Source of the DNA: Flavipsychrobacter stenotrophus
GTDB taxonomy: Bacteria; Bacteroidota; Bacteroidia; Chitinophagales; Chitinophagaceae
Reading direction: 5' to 3'
Length of the DNA stretch: 64,000 nucleotides
NCBI RefSeq assembly: GCF_002954265.1
Contig: NZ_PPSL01000002.1
Coordinates: 310,001-374,000 of the forward strand
In this document: in pieces, positions 57,587 through 64,000 of the stretch
How positions within the stretch are numbered: the stretch's first letter is position 1
How the letters are laid out: every line of letters begins with the position of its first letter
Notes under the pieces: model-generated
The model's input: the letters and a program-made list of their open reading frames with translations, nothing else
Databases searched by the model: none
What the model was told of the DNA's origin: nothing
Program-made: the position numbers and the translations under genes

Positions 57587-59230
<1,644 letters not shown>

Positions 59231-59232
59231 TT

Positions 59233-59345
59233 AAATTTGTCAATTTGTCAATTTGGCAATTAGCCAATTGACGCGTATAAAAAAATGTTGTTTACTTGTT
59301 TAATTGCTGTTATCCGAAGGCAACAATTGGCTAATTGCCGAATTA
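59233..59345. repeat. 8-bp-period inverted-repeat element, copy 3 (inside gro operon)
   Basis: Left arm 59233-59270 (CAATTTGT CAATTTGG CAATTAGC CAATTG), right arm 59324-59345 (CAATTGG CTAATTGC CGAATT), with the centre unrelated to the other copies. It starts 9 bases before the groEL start and reaches into the groES stop codon. Confidence 0.8.
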
Positions 59346-59624
59346 AATTACCGCCAGGATATCGCTTTCACGCATGATCAGGTAGTCAGCACCTTCCAGT
59401 GAAATTTCTGTACCTGCATATTTACCATATAAAACGGTATCGCCTGCCTTCACAGTCATTGGTTCATCTTTCTTACCCGGACCAGCAGCAACTACTACAC
59501 CGCGTTGTGGCTTTTCCTTAGCAGTATCAGGTATAATGATACCACCGGCAGTCTTTTCTTCAGCAGCAGCCGATTTTACAATAACCCTGTCATGAAGGGG
59601 AGTAATGTTAACGTTGTTAGCCAT
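59343..59624 (-). CDS. groES: Co-chaperonin GroES
   Basis: 93-residue heptameric lid of Gro[27 protein letters not shown] includes the mobile loop, and [16 protein letters not shown] follows. First gene of the groES-groEL operon. No CIRCE (HrcA) element upstream. A small dyad TGCATAT/ATATGCA at 59766-59785 is the only operator-like feature and has no known regulator. Confidence 0.97.
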
Positions 59625-60072
59625 TTTTATAAATTTTTATGTTTGTGAACAGTTTTGTACTATCGGTTCATCATCTTTTATGCCAAACGGGTTTCAGCCA
59701 CTTTTTCGGTCATTTTTGCAGTGCAAGGCCTTTTCATTTTGTCATTTTAAGCCACAGCAAGCCAACTTTGCATATAACAATATGCATTATTGATATTTTG
59801 GCAGATAGTTACTTACGCTCATTTACACGATTTTCCGGTTCTTCTTTACCTAATAATAAGGTGGGCAGCTTGCTTGATCAGACGATCTTAAGTACTTGCT
59901 CTCAAATCGCTCCGGTATGATCAAAAACAAAATCAAATAAAATCAACAGAGATCATGCTCCTCATCAGCCCGCAAGAAAAAATATATAAGCAACGCCGCT
60001 GCAAATAAGGCTTTCAGACATTTCAAGGGTAACTTAGCGCTTTATCATCAAAAAGATTTTTTGAATACCTGA
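59625..60072. other. Upstream region between groES and csp genes
   Basis: About 450 bp without a gene. It contains the dyad TGCATAT-AACA-ATATGCA (59766-59785) and A/T-rich DNA. No promoter of the TAnnTTTG type was found facing groES. Confidence 0.5.
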
Positions 60073-60102
60073 TTGTATTTTGGTTTTTTGTTTATATCTT
60101 TG
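60073..60102 (+). promoter_or_regulatory. Bacteroidota promoter of the cold-shock gene
   Basis: TTG (60073-60075), 19 bases, then TATCTTTG (60095-60102): a match to the consensus TTTG-N19-TAnnTTTG. Transcription would start about 60108, giving a leader of about 25 bases. Confidence 0.8.
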
Positions 60103-60132
60103 GTCTTTATTAATCTTTTTATTTTAAAAACA

Positions 60133-60324
60133 ATGCAAGAAGGTACAGTTAAGTTTTTCAATGAGACAAAGGGTTTTGGTTTCATCACACCATCAAACGG
60201 TGGTCCGGACATTTTCGTTCACGTTTCAGGTCTTCATGATGAAATCCGTGAGAACAATAAAGTGTCTTACGAAGTTCAGAATGGCAAAAAAGGTTTGAAT
60301 GCAGTTAATGTAAGAGTTATCTAA
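60133..60324 (+). CDS. Cold-shock domain protein
   Basis: 63-residue CSD protein with both RNA-binding motifs, KGFGFI (RNP1) and DIFVHVS (RNP2). Start ATG 60133 (MQEGTVKFFNETK); the frame is open upstream but that part is promoter and leader. Probably an RNA chaperone. Strong promoter upstream and terminator downstream. Confidence 0.95.
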   Translation: MQEGTVKFFNETKGFGFITPSNGGPDIFVHVSGLHDEIRENNKVSYEVQNGKKGLNAVNVRVI

Positions 60325-60344
60325 TTCTATTCATATCCAACTTT

Positions 60345-60375
60345 GAAAGCCCTCGGTTTACCGAGGGCTTTTTTT
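60345..60375 (+). terminator. Terminator of the cold-shock gene
   Basis: Stem AAAGCCCTCGG / CCGAGGGCTTT, 4-base loop, then T-run. Confidence 0.9.
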
Positions 60376-60568
60376 GTGCGGTTAATGCTTCTTATGGGTT
60401 GGCATTGTCTCACATCTCATTTTTTCAACTTAACATTATTCTATGGAATACAGCGGCAATAGCGACATTTCAAAAGAACCAGACTACCAACAACCTCATC
60501 AGTCTTCAAAGAAGAGTATGAAACTGCGTATTTTCAATTCCTTTAAAGAAAAAACAAGTAAACTCCCC

Positions 60569-61381
60569 CTAAAATCGCATAAAATGTTCACTTGTAAACA
60601 CACATTCGGGTGTTCTTATCTCACCTTCTTTCAGTTCATACCACGGACTTAATCCGCTATTCATAGGATTGGCCAGTAGCTGCATTTGCTGCGCCGGCAT
60701 AAAGCCCTGTGCGAGTAAGTATATTTTATGGCCGCTTTTATCATGTGCCATATCCATCACCAGCTCCACGTGTCCGGGTGTACCACCCCTTACCAACAGG
60801 TCACCGGGTCGCACATCCCGCCACCCTATTTTCGTCAATTCCCTGCTCAGCGATAAAGATCCGCAGTAGCTATAGATCACATCCATATAAGTGCCTAGGG
60901 TTGCACTATCATCTCTTGCTGCCACACTCTTTACCCATTCCGTTTTATTACCCTTCACCGCTATCCTGTAGCCATGCGCCCATTTACTATATGCTGCCAC
61001 AAACCCATTAGTGAGTGTAAACCGTATACTGTCTTGCATGCCAACTTTATACAGGTAAGCCGCACGCATGTGCATAGCCACATCGGCACACTGCTGCAGG
61101 TCTTTATGCCCAATAGGCATATCAATTACCGCCACATACACATCCGGCTTATCTTTTACGCTTCCATCAAAATAATGCACCTTTTCGCCAGCAGCCAGCA
61201 GCGGAACATTCTGCAGATAGGTTGCAAAAGAAGTATCGACTCCTACAATACGCGTATATCCTTCAGGCAGTAGCACGCGCTCTTTTATCGTCCGCCCCAG
61301 CGGATTGAGGTAGCTCTTTTGCTGCAACGACTGGCAGGAATGGAGCAGAAAAACCGACAACAACAGCGACGTGTATTTCAT
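60569..61381 (-). CDS. DUF4846 lipoprotein
   Basis: 270-residue lipoprotein from ATG 61381, lipobox LLHSC (lipid Cys16). Body of the DUF4846 family, seen in Bacteroidota and others, with LPEGYTRI, YFDGSVK, DMPIGHKDLQQCADVAMHMRA, YSYCGSLSLSREL and GDLLVRGGTPGHVELVMDMA. The last segment (GG-PGHV) resembles an NlpC/P60-like or similar cysteine/His fold, so a wall-linked role is possible, but function is unknown. The upstream non-ATG extension is not used. Confidence 0.85.
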   Translation of the reverse strand: MKYTSLLLSVFLLHSCQSLQQKSYLNPLGRTIKERVLLPEGYTRIVGVDTSFATYLQNVPLLAAGEKVHYFDGSVKDKPDVYVAVIDMPIGHKDLQQCADVAMHMRAAYLYKVGMQDSIRFTLTNGFVAAYSKWAHGYRIAVKGNKTEWVKSVAARDDSATLGTYMDVIYSYCGSLSLSRELTKIGWRDVRPGDLLVRGGTPGHVELVMDMAHDKSGHKIYLLAQGFMPAQQMQLLANPMNSGLSPWYELKEGEIRTPECVFTSEHFMRF

Positions 61382-61454
61382 AATAACAGTTTGCGGCAAT
61401 TATAAACTATATTTTGAGGGAAATAGTATCGAGAGTGGGAATATAATTTAGGGG

Positions 61455-61560
61455 AAAGTCCTGTTTTGTGTAAATTTTTATCGGGCACGGAATCTTGATT
61501 ATTAATTGATTTTGAATGGGTTATGAAATAGTTGTATGCCCGATTATGCCCGACGAAGTG
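61455..61560 (-). repeat. ~106-bp repeat (TCGGGCAT...ATGCCCGA), copy A, inverted
   Basis: Inverted copy of 63195-63300; about 11 differences in the 100 aligned bases by eye. The inner part has ends ATCGGGCAT / TGCCCGAT type. Copy B is at 62770-62868. A and B enclose the helix-turn-helix gene. Confidence 0.85.
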
Positions 61561-61620
61561 AGAGCGGGATAAGGAAAACGCCCTATGTGCTGAGCGTATG
61601 TCTCTGACGACGCTCGTGCG

Positions 61621-61660
61621 GTCGCCGGTCTCTGACCGGCATATCGGGCCGGTTCTCTTT
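61621..61660 (+). repeat. GGTCTCTGACCGG...CCGGTTCTCTTTG repeat
   Basis: GCCGGTCTCTGACCGGC, ATATCG, GGCCGGTTCTCTTTG; same family as 4861-4904 and 46545-46591. Confidence 0.7.
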
Positions 61661-61811
61661 GTGGGCGCTGTGTCCATAACATCTACCCAATCACCCCTCA
61701 TACCTAAAATTTTCTCATGGACGCAAACATTTTTTCATAACTGCGAAAAACTAATACACACCAACCTCACTTTCAAAAATCTACTCTTAGTTATCCACAC
61801 AAAAAAGTTTT

Positions 61812-61860
61812 ATGGTGGTACGAAAAGCGTACCATCATGGTACGGAAAGTGTACCACCAT
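61812..61860. promoter_or_regulatory. Four-half-site dyad, candidate operator
   Basis: Nested palindrome: outer arms ATGGTGGTAC (61812-61821) / GTACCACCAT (61851-61860). Inside are two units GGTAC-GAAAAGC-GTACC and GGTAC-GGAAAGT-GTACC, so GGTAC/GTACC half-sites occur four times with the units 22 bases apart. It lies 124 bp before the start of the helix-turn-helix gene. Confidence 0.6.
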
Positions 61861-61941
61861 GACTTTTCATTCCATCCGTTTGTTTCCGGTTGCCCACCTT
61901 TACTACCCAAATTTCTGGACAGGAAAATTTCCCCGACCACT

Positions 61942-61972
61942 TTTTGGTTTTGACTTTTAACTTTTGACTTAA
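61942..61972. repeat. CTTTTAACTTTTGACTT repeat, copy 5
   Basis: TTTTGACTTTTAACTTTTGA, 12 bases before the GTG start of the next gene. Confidence 0.6.
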
Positions 61973-61983
61973 TCAATAATCCT

Positions 61984-62877
61984 GTGGAAGCAAACAACGA
62001 CAAAAAACAAGCCGCACGCAACCTCTTTCTCCACTCCGACAGAACCCGTGCCGAGATCGCCGACCTCATCGACATTAACACCAAAACACTCTACCTGTGG
62101 ATCAAACACGGCCGCTGGGAACAAATGAAGACCGCAGCAAGGCAAACACCCGCATCCCTGTTGCAGGATGTGTATGATCACATCGAGGCAGTCAACAATA
62201 AAATAAAAGCCCGCGAAGATCGGTGCCCCACCTGGCAGGAAGTAGAAATGCTGCGTAAACTATTCGCATCAACAAAACACATCCAGAAACTCAATATCGG
62301 CTCATACATCGAAGCATTTACCGAACTGACCTCCTTTATCAACGACCATGACAGCGAGCTGGGTAAGGCAGTAGTCACCCTAACAGACAAATACATAAAA
62401 GGCTTGGTTAGCCCGTTCCACCCCACAGCCTACAAAAACGTAAGTGATGTCAAGGACAACCTCGAAGCCATAGAACAAGAGGAAGAAAAAGACATGGCCG
62501 AACTTCAGCGGGAAGAAGTGGCTCTGGCAGATCATGAATCAAACAAAGCGGAAACCAATACAGCCATCATCATCCTGCTTACATCTAACCACGGATCTCA
62601 GGCAGACAATAACACACCCGCACAAGCAACACAACCCACACAAGATCTTACTCCCGACACAACAACAAAGTCACACACCCTTTCTTCACTCCCACTCTTA
62701 AAATGTACACCATCACTCTTTACCCGTCCTCCACTCACCCACCGCTATTTGGGAATGATTTTTCAGGTAGTCGGCAATCATCGGGCATTCTTTCTTTACA
62801 TAAACCATTCAAAACCAAACAATAATTCAAATTCTATGCCCGATGAAAATTTTCGCCAAACAGGGCATGATTGGTGA
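61984..62877 (+). CDS. Terminase gpP N-terminus-like helix-turn-helix protein
   Basis: 297 residues, GTG start at 61984. The first 50 residues form a homeodomain-like helix-turn-helix (SDRTRAEIADLIDINTKTLY, WIKHGRW) of the kind at the start of phage terminase gpP-like proteins. Residues about 50-165 are helical (LLQDVYDHIEAVNNKIKARE, EAFTELTSFINDHDSELGKAV). Then comes an acidic, Thr/Gln-rich tail (165-230), and the last ~36 residues are encoded inside repeat copy B, so the natural end of the protein may have been replaced. There is no ATPase or nuclease part and no phage gene nearby. C-rich codon use differs from its neighbours, which hints at transfer. Function unknown; DNA binding likely. 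Confidence 0.75.
   Translation: MEANNDKKQAARNLFLHSDRTRAEIADLIDINTKTLYLWIKHGRWEQMKTAARQTPASLLQDVYDHIEAVNNKIKAREDRCPTWQEVEMLRKLFASTKHIQKLNIGSYIEAFTELTSFINDHDSELGKAVVTLTDKYIKGLVSPFHPTAYKNVSDVKDNLEAIEQEEEKDMAELQREEVALADHESNKAETNTAIIILLTSNHGSQADNNTPAQATQPTQDLTPDTTTKSHTLSSLPLLKCTPSLFTRPPLTHRYLGMIFQVVGNHRAFFLYINHSKPNNNSNSMPDENFRQTGHDW
62770..62868 (+). repeat. ~100-bp repeat (TCGGGCAT...ATGCCCGA), copy B
   Basis: Direct relative of copy C (63195-63300), more diverged; overlaps the last 33 codons of the helix-turn-helix gene. Confidence 0.75.
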
Positions 62878-63020
62878 GATCAATTTGACATTTCTCTGAA
62901 GGGGCGAGGCACCTGTCGCAACTATCGCGAGAGTTAGCCCCGATCATCTCGGGGCTCTCGTGACGATATGATTTGACGGGTCTCTGACCCTAAGTGTTCG
63001 AAAAGAGTAAAACTGCTCGT

Positions 63021-63100
63021 GATATGTCCCGTAGGGACTACCGGTTTGTAGTAAAACGTAACAAAAAATGGGCATTGCCCCGTCAGGGGCAACCCTTTTC
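63021..63100 (+). repeat. CCGTAGGG...GGTTTGTAG compound repeat, copy 3
   Basis: ATGTCCCGTAGGGACTACCGG, then TTTGTAGTAAAACGTAAC, then TTGCCCCGTCAGGGGCAA hairpin. Similar order to 45011 and 56966. The 62878-63680 gap has no gene. Confidence 0.6.
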
Positions 63101-63194
63101 TAAGCACATTAATAACTTTCCTAACACTTCTGGCCTCTGACCCGACACACTACATAAGCAAGAAATTCCGCCCTTATCTTTCGCTCCCCATACC

Positions 63195-63300
63195 CACTTC
63201 GTCGGGCACGATCGGGCATACAACTATTTCATAACCCATTTAAAACCAATCAATAATCAAAATTCCATGCCCGATAAAAATTTGCACCAAACAGGGCATT
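63195..63300 (+). repeat. ~106-bp repeat (TCGGGCAT...ATGCCCGA), copy C
   Basis: Best conserved pair with copy A. Begins CACTTCGTCGGGCA and ends ACAGGGCATT. Confidence 0.85.
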
Positions 63301-63304
63301 TCCG

Positions 63305-63352
63305 CCGTTGTCGGTCTTCTCACCAACAACCATCAGGCCGGTTCTTTTTAGG
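63305..63352 (+). repeat. GTCGGTCT...GGCCGGTTCTTTTT repeat
   Basis: Diverged member of the 4861/46545/61621 family, again directly beside a copy of the 106-bp repeat. Confidence 0.5.
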
Positions 63353-63371
63353 ATAACCCAAAACGGCTTAT

Positions 63372-63457
63372 CACTGGTCGAAGCGTCCCGCTTGCGAAAA
63401 AATACGGAAGCGAGACGCTTCCATTAGATAGGACGAAGGGAGACCCTTCGACCAGTG
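63372..63457. repeat. Nested cloverleaf-like palindrome
   Basis: Outer arms CACTGGTCGAAG / CTTCGACCAGTG perfect over 12 bp. Inner stem GAAGCGTC / GACGCTTC extended with CGCTT / AAGCG, and a third hairpin CGAAGGGAGACCCTTCG, all within 86 bases. Confidence 0.8.
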
Positions 63458-63509
63458 GGAGTAATATCCTAGCTTTTCACCAAGATAGGACCAAAGACGA
63501 AGAAGAGCT

Positions 63510-63534
63510 TAGAGGCGCAAGATTGAGTCTCCAC
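63510..63534 (-). repeat. GAGACGCAA palindrome, decayed copy 3
   Basis: TAGAGGCGCAAGATTGAGTC then TCCAC, near-match to the inverse of the copies at 1136 and 9956. Confidence 0.5.
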
Positions 63535-63668
63535 AGCGGATGGACTCAGCGACCCGATACTAGATTGCTTTGTTCCCTGCCGGCAGGCAGGCTCACAAAG
63601 ACCGGCTAATGTATCAGCTTGTTACTAGCTGGCAATTGAGCCATTACGCAATTCAGCCATTATCAATG

Positions 63669-63676
63669 TACATTTG
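63669..63676 (+). promoter_or_regulatory. -7 element abutting the phosphopantetheinyl transferase start
   Basis: TACATTTG, four bases, then ATG 63681. Confidence 0.5.
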
Positions 63677-63680
63677 TGTT

Positions 63681-64000
63681 ATGCCGCTACTTAAAGAATG
63701 GAATATAGGGGATCATGGCCGGGGTGCTATATGGAAGGTGGAGGAAGATGAGGCTTTTTTTGCTGAAAAGACAGGGATAGTGTCTGATATAAAGAATGAG
63801 AAGCGTAGGATAGAGCACCTGGCAGGGCGCTATTTGCTCACTCATTTGGAAGAAGAATTTCCGCTGCACACCATTCAAAAGGATGAACATGACAAACCCC
63901 GTATACCCGATGACCAGTTTCATTTCTCTATTTCACACTCATGGCCTTATATAGCGGTGGCGGTAGACCCTGTAGACGCTGCAGGTATAGATATACAGAC
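63681..64000 (+). CDS. 4'-phosphopantetheinyl transferase family protein (3' truncated)
   Basis: Runs past the right edge of the window; 106 residues seen. MPLLKEWNIGDHGRGAIWKV start, REAGRYLLTHL-type middle (IEHLAGRYLLTHL), KPRIPDDQFHFSISHSWPYIAVAV and VDAAGIDIQ. FSISHS and GIDI are the signature of the Sfp-type enzyme that puts the phosphopantetheine arm on carrier proteins. Start ATG 63681, 5 bases after a TACATTTG box. Confidence 0.88.
   Translation, partial: MPLLKEWNIGDHGRGAIWKVEEDEAFFAEKTGIVSDIKNEKRRIEHLAGRYLLTHLEEEFPLHTIQKDEHDKPRIPDDQFHFSISHSWPYIAVAVDPVDAAGIDIQ

Follow-up and report, generated by a model that had tools for sequence, protein, structure and literature searches.

In the genome of Flavipsychrobacter stenotrophus a gene for a helix-turn-helix (HTH) protein lies among three copies of one repeat of about 100 bp, which raises the question whether protein and repeats belong together and what such a pair would be for. 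The window, meaning the whole stretch of 64,000 nucleotides that was analysed, covers C11:310001-374000 of this genome (G000; 5.43 Mb, 21 contigs). The following features are found in it:

61452-61560, minus strand: repeat copy A (family 1), left of the gene in opposite orientation; member of the gene-locus clade
61695-61861, plus strand: left block, sharing homology (167 bp, 81%) with the promoter of terS in this genome's phage cluster
61791-61799, plus strand: TTATCCACA box within the left block
61817-61855 (C11:371817-371855), no strand: double palindrome GGTAC-7-GTACCATCATGGTAC-7-GTACC in the left block
61984-62877, plus strand: solo TerS-like gene, 297 amino acids (an HTH, long helices and a disordered linker; repeat B encodes the tail)
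62770-62868, plus strand: repeat copy B (family 1), in frame with the 3' end of the gene
62781-62788, 62836-62844 and 62861-62868: iterons of repeat copy B
63195-63303, plus strand: repeat copy C (family 1), downstream of the gene

The repeats of the window and the protein beside them

Positions and orientations of the three repeats, as given in the original prediction, were confirmed by pairwise alignment and by a search of the own genome with copy C, which returned A (E 3e-35) and B (E 8e-19). Over 109 nt, copy A (61452-61560) is complementary to copy C (63195-63303) at 89% of positions, in agreement with the earlier count of about 11 differences per 100 positions; B (62770-62868) shares 80% identity with C over 99 nt and shows 75% complementarity to A across 102 nt. 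All three are genuine repeats, far beyond what chance would give. As had also been claimed, the gene at 61984-62877 (GTG start) overlaps repeat B, and approximately the last 33 residues of its product are encoded by this repeat, read in frame. The view of TCGGGCAT and ATGCCCGA as simple inverted ends proved wrong: the unit is instead an iteron array with a spacer and a further direct copy. The order in a full copy is TCGGGCAC-GATCGGGCAT, about 47 nt, ATGCCCGAT, about 15 nt and then an extra direct (T/A)CGGGCAT or AGGGCAT, giving the family-1 layout, in which iterons spaced by about 11 nt are followed by an AT-rich spacer and then a distal iteron. No structured RNA was found at the repeats by an Rfam search at E <= 0.1, and copy C had no match in phage or plasmid collections. 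Scans of viral sequences with the left-block pattern, A2 and three repeat patterns found none. The listed ORFs of the window, judged by eye, contain nothing transposase-like, as had been stated before. Elsewhere in the window, at 60113-60374, an Rfam match to the cspA thermoregulator under the gathering score (40.9 vs 78 bits) overlaps a small cold-shock-like ORF (60073-60324).

The protein had been labelled "terminase-gpP-like"; a Pfam match to Terminase_5 (gpP-like) agrees with this label, albeit barely above the cut-off (22.4 vs 20.3 bits). A full-length profile match was obtained with phrog_4151, covering both the HTH and the helical domain (residues 3-141 on positions 5-147 of 154, E 9e-22). 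The same profile matches the phage-cluster TerS of the same genome (E 3e-21), the hankyphage p00 TerS (E 5e-48) and all 18 rows of the homologue alignment A3. The best phage relatives of the window protein are found in Bacteroides phages (29% identity, E 2e-11). Judged by these matches, the gene product is a stand-alone relative of TerS from Mu-like Bacteroidota phages; neither this relation nor the late-type promoter region described below had been seen in the original prediction. No TerL-like frame was recognised by eye among the ORFs of 58000-64000, unlike the situation at the cluster TerS of the same genome, where TerL is present. Searches of Pfam, PHROG and NCBIfam and the AF2 model yielded no catalytic domain in the window protein; no Y1 match was obtained with Pfam or PHROG, and NCBIfam and PADLOC returned no family at E 0.01. 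The AF2 model was weak (mean pLDDT 57.3; residues 1-140 mostly 63-89). Foldseek found no PDB match under 0.001 and a single viral one, titled 'DDE transposase family protein', from which no fold was assigned; a search of solved structures gave matches at the HTH level only. Weak HTH-type matches among the 18 A3 rows were obtained with IS630 and IS3 transposases (five rows each) and with PADLOC mad1 (16 rows, best E 9e-7). We take all of these as HTH matches.

In the seven printed pairs of close genes the N-terminal part shows dN/dS values of 0.03-0.10, and the protein has therefore been kept. Synonymous divergence amounts to 0.27 in the repeat-coded tail vs 0.48 and 0.52 in the other gene parts, which points to selection on the DNA itself, with only about 18 synonymous sites per pair in this comparison.

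Pairing of gene and repeats

Close copies of the gene number four in the own genome (78-100% identity), three in G004 and one in G010, and a repeat copy lies at the 3' end of all eight. With copy C as the query (E <= 0.001), three genus genomes gave at least 43 (G000), 32 and 30 matches, and none was found among the candidates scored in the other eight of the 11; counts and absences are those of a search which scored part of the candidates (40 of 66 in G000). Close genes and repeats thereby occur in the same three genomes (G000, G004, G010), for which the chance is 1 in 165, with the reservation that the three may form one clade. The close genes of the own genome sit between different host-type frames, and by eye each close gene stands alone between such frames, with no island genes (integrase, replication, interference) beside it.

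A tree was calculated from 94 full-length copies, which came from 40 loci fetched for bearing repeats (27 in G000, 11 in G004, 2 in G010); hits below 35 bits or spanning fewer than 88 model positions were dropped, including the truncated copy at the C16 gene. All 12 gene-locus copies, which come from three genomes (seven at the 3' end, five nearby), group in a single exclusive clade (support 0.997), and the 82 orphans stand apart. It follows that the repeat travels together with the gene and that the orphans were not seeded by the genes now present. Iteron positions are mostly at least 90% conserved in gene-locus copies and orphans of this set alike; spacer positions vary widely. The expectation that the repeats cluster at homologues and are absent elsewhere failed in its second half, as 82 of the 94 scored copies lie far from any close homologue. 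Of the two observations named in advance as speaking against a link, repeats far from homologues were seen and homologues without repeats in related genomes were not seen for the close family.

Neighbouring family-1 pairs in the 40 fetched loci share the same orientation in 55 of 55 cases, a count limited to distances of up to 600 bp, which leaves out the inverted window copy A against B. Where a family-2 or family-3 copy is near a family-1 array, it is upstream of the array and points the same way in 14 of 14 cases. At the G000 loci L113, L120, L124-L128, L130, L132 and L133, a family-2 repeat is found 60-333 bp upstream of the family-1 array, mostly at 104-106 bp and always in like orientation.

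TerS-like genes were found in 22 of 244 family genomes, often several times per genome, and some other lineages of them carry repeats of their own. Behind the L035-type gene, whose product shares 25-29% identity with the window protein, stands a different repeat of about 145 bp (family 2) with at least 24 matches in G000 and 17 in G010, the only two of the 11 genus genomes where this type was found; in the other nine the repeat was not found. AAGTGGCAG iterons are found at L036 and L063; four more of the fetched G000 loci have copies as well. G129, a genome from another genus, has TATACC iterons at L189 and L207. Searching it with the 3' region of L207 gave 79 matches, a number that includes places counted on both strands because the iterons are palindromic; two sister genomes of G129 gave no match to this region. 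In the 170 nt past the stop codon, 8-mer multiplicity was significant at 8 of 51 TerS-like loci and at none of 57 control ORF ends. L054 and L229 pass through other repeats, which leaves six iteron-like loci. The 43 loci that fail include the L035 type with its degenerate iterons and five near-identical dispersed paralogues in G202.

We regard it as firmly established that solo TerS lineages are paired with their own dispersed repeats; such a pairing was not found in the literature searched. It recurs with different repeats in different gene lineages and also in another genus. The predicted element family tied to this protein is supported in part, as far as co-occurrence of gene and repeat goes (three of 11 genomes, all eight 3' ends, two further lineages).

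Phage-type promoter region and the packaging reading

Homology of the left block to phage promoters extends beyond the window. Upstream regions of five close genes resemble the terS promoters of the G000, G004 and G010 clusters over 163-190 bp (74-83%); upstream of the L035-type gene about 55 bp are common with the cluster terS promoters and 116 bp with the protease promoters. On this homology, the window gene is kept with a phage late-type promoter region. The TTATCCACA box of the left block is DnaA-box-like, and TATCCACA is found within 400 nt upstream of 21 of 59 TerS-like genes vs 2 of 81 control ORFs. Allowing up to three mismatches, the GGTAC double palindrome occurs at 10 places in G000, 10 in G004, 6 in G010 and 2 in G005; the remaining seven genomes of the genus have none. 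Within the phage clusters, the palindrome precedes both terS and the divergent protease-capsid operon.

Several related sites were observed in passing. The palindrome in G005 precedes an ORF (L303:3671-4348, G005:C68) resembling a TerS C-domain without the HTH (E 8e-7). At about 1390-1440 of L050 (G006), upstream of the TerS-like gene, tandem palindromes have the GGTAC-pair form with another sequence (TGATGC/GCATCA), and the G202 copies L238-L242 carry CATATGC/GCATA palindrome pairs. Ahead of a frame read as gcvP, one and the same intergenic site contains an orphan palindrome in one species (L299, G004:C8) and a TerS-like gene in another (L058, G010:C169), as though sites of this kind were reused.

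The phage cluster itself was located at the same locus in two species:

G000:C11:1105900-1143574 (L296/L330) and G004:C9:1-39800 (L298/L327): late Mu-like cluster

It comprises TerS, TerL, portal (G004), protease, capsid and tail genes and adjoins frames read as mreD, mreC, mreB and carB in both genomes. Portal (Portal_Mu), capsid (Phage_capsid_2), TerL (phrog_38) and protease (Mu-like_Pro, below the cut-off) were named by family search; mreB/C/D, carB, dnaX, gcvP, sheath, fibre and MuA-like are names given by eye. Between G000 and G004 synonymous sites are near saturation, with dN/dS values of 0.04 for TerL, 0.05 for the protease, 0.035 for the fibre and 0.12 for TerS. The right edge abuts host genes, with no early genes seen on that side; as the left side runs off the contigs, this absence applies to the right side. 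The cluster is possibly a gene transfer agent, and its two divergent operons are separated by very large secreted-type genes. A fuller Mu-like prophage, with a frame read by eye as MuA-like, is found at another place in G007, a genome without repeats.

Hankyphage p00 (BK010646.1) has TerL, portal and a Mu F-like gene behind TerS, with a ClpP-type protease divergent to TerS. Both p00 and a Porphyromonas phage (TerS 68% identical) carry TTTACAT motifs in a layout similar to that of the repeat iterons, 115-220 bp from the left end. The iteron test was applied to four left ends (a fifth phage record, L332, begins elsewhere). The TTTACAT set passed in the Porphyromonas phage (L331, p 0.001), where other repeats also pass; for p00 and L334, a near relative of it, the 8-mer that reached significance is a different repeat at 746-812, and the Elizabethkingia left end was not significant. 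Packaging of hankyphage is described as starting at the left end by a headful mechanism (PMC12135933).

Taken together, we favour, at a probability of roughly 40%, the reading that a TerS with dispersed, pac-like binding sites retains a packaging role. TerS homology, the homologous promoter region, the pairing in three lineages and the conservation of the iterons were computed here; binding, co-expression, packaging and the mode of dispersal are inferred. The solo TerS would derive from Mu-like Bacteroidota phages and be retained with its late-type promoter region, and the repeat of about 100 bp would be its recognition site, one of which remains at the 3' end of the gene while others form one-way arrays between host genes. 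Once phage late genes or a kept phage-like cluster are switched on, the solo TerS might be made too and bind the arrays, where the large terminase could then begin to package chromosomal DNA. This reading leads because the protein is a packaging protein, because of the layout of the unit and because a like motif lies near phage left ends. Against it, the family-1 model had no match in the cluster stretches searched, and neither the viral nor the plasmid collections searched contain the repeats. The TTTACAT cluster passed in only one of four left ends, eight of 51 loci passed downstream (two via other repeats), the three repeat-bearing genomes may be a single clade, and the copying of orphan arrays as units of up to about 1 kb is not explained by packaging alone. 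It is doubtful whether matters go further, such that several solo TerS proteins, each with its own dispersed packaging-start arrays on the chromosome and a common phage late promoter, feed a domesticated Mu-like cluster in a gene transfer with several addressable specificities, as opposed to packaging at random.

Alternative explanations and known systems

The copied arrays bear most directly on a mobile element without a packaging role, composed of left block, TerS-like gene and iteron repeat, whose protein would bind the ends. We consider this a close rival of the packaging reading, though on the unlikely side. Its main support comes from eight composite orphan loci with 0.26-0.99 kb in common (70-91%), five of which have the same left edge at AAAGATATCCACA; in three, homology stops at the last repeat. 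This looks like the copying of units with defined ends. Furthermore, three orphan arrays have the left block in place of the gene, the close genes lie between different host genes, and the five near-identical G202 copies lose homology within their last codons and 190-300 bp upstream. In this reading the orphan arrays would be gene-less, MITE-like derivatives with both ends, moved in trans by a separate enzyme. The protein, however, has no catalytic domain that was found, no target-site duplication was seen by eye, no terminal inverted repeats were recognised at the composite units, and with orphans and gene-locus copies in separate clades the present genes are not the seed of the arrays. A candidate empty site was seen in G009, where no TerS-like frame precedes a frame read as dnaX; the upstream neighbour of the latter differs as well.

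Many regulators are found among the HTH relatives, and the double palindrome near the promoter resembles an operator. Both speak for a domesticated HTH repressor or nucleoid-type protein, with the repeats as operators or decoys and no packaging role. Against it, the palindrome is common to proteins only 24% identical and is not the same as the repeat iterons, and the genes adjoining the arrays have no common theme by eye; we judge this explanation improbable.

That a Y1/RAYT transposase moves REP-type elements beside a bystander TerS-like gene is highly improbable despite five Y1 matches in the own genome, one of which (L045) has TCGGGCAT copies about 1.2 kb downstream, since Y1 occurs in 10 of 11 genus genomes vs three of 11 for the repeats, four of the five Y1 loci lack TCGGGCAT within about 1.5 kb and other TerS-like lineages have other repeats at the same place; as a server of the repeats it was set aside on its distribution. 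The predicted REP/RAYT-like organisation without a RAYT holds, Y1 genes not tracking the repeats. One Y1 match, L042 (G000:C14:600439-600777), has an in-frame TGA, with two intact relatives in the same genome.

With respect to known systems, the packaging reading may be compared with phages first. In lambda cosB (R3-IHF-R2-R1) and in Mu pac, several TerS sites are arranged around a spacer. The repeats described here lie outside phage and are unrelated in sequence; any likeness would be in the layout of candidate sites. Phage TerS (p00, BK010646.1; phrog_4151) is similar in its full-length profile match and in a late promoter homologous to that of the same-genome clusters; unlike it, the window gene has no terL, portal or other phage gene beside it, and the solo gene occurs in several copies per genome with dispersed lineage-specific repeats at its 3' end. 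PICIs redirect packaging via TerS or Rpp (PMC6739421), and an extra-phage packaging protein could do likewise; unlike in PICIs, no island genes (integrase, replication, capsid interference) were recognised beside the gene, which is multicopy, and the candidate sites are dispersed. A point of likeness to RcGTA is the late phage cluster of G000 and G004, which sits at one locus and evolves under purifying selection. RcGTA TerS is reported to bind without specificity, with no start sites found (PMC7947584); here, unlike in RcGTA, both TerS genes and candidate sites occur in multiple copies.

Were the repeats packaging starts, the chromosome itself would provide addresses for phage-like particles, which would make directed transduction or the loading of gene transfer agents testable via sequencing of particle DNA. 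If they are mobile ends, a mobile family would be built on a DNA-binding protein without a recognised transposase. In either reading the dispersed intergenic repeats of Chitinophagaceae gain a candidate partner protein. An organisational parallel is REPIN/RAYT (PMC3116915), in which a lineage-specific gene likewise lies beside its own repeat, with orphan clusters between genes of the same genomes. Unlike there, the unit measures 100-170 bp with iterons, and Y1 genes do not follow the repeats. Bacterial pairs of a gene and dispersed repeats are known from such Y1-transposase systems; here, the partner is a relative of TerS, a phage packaging protein.
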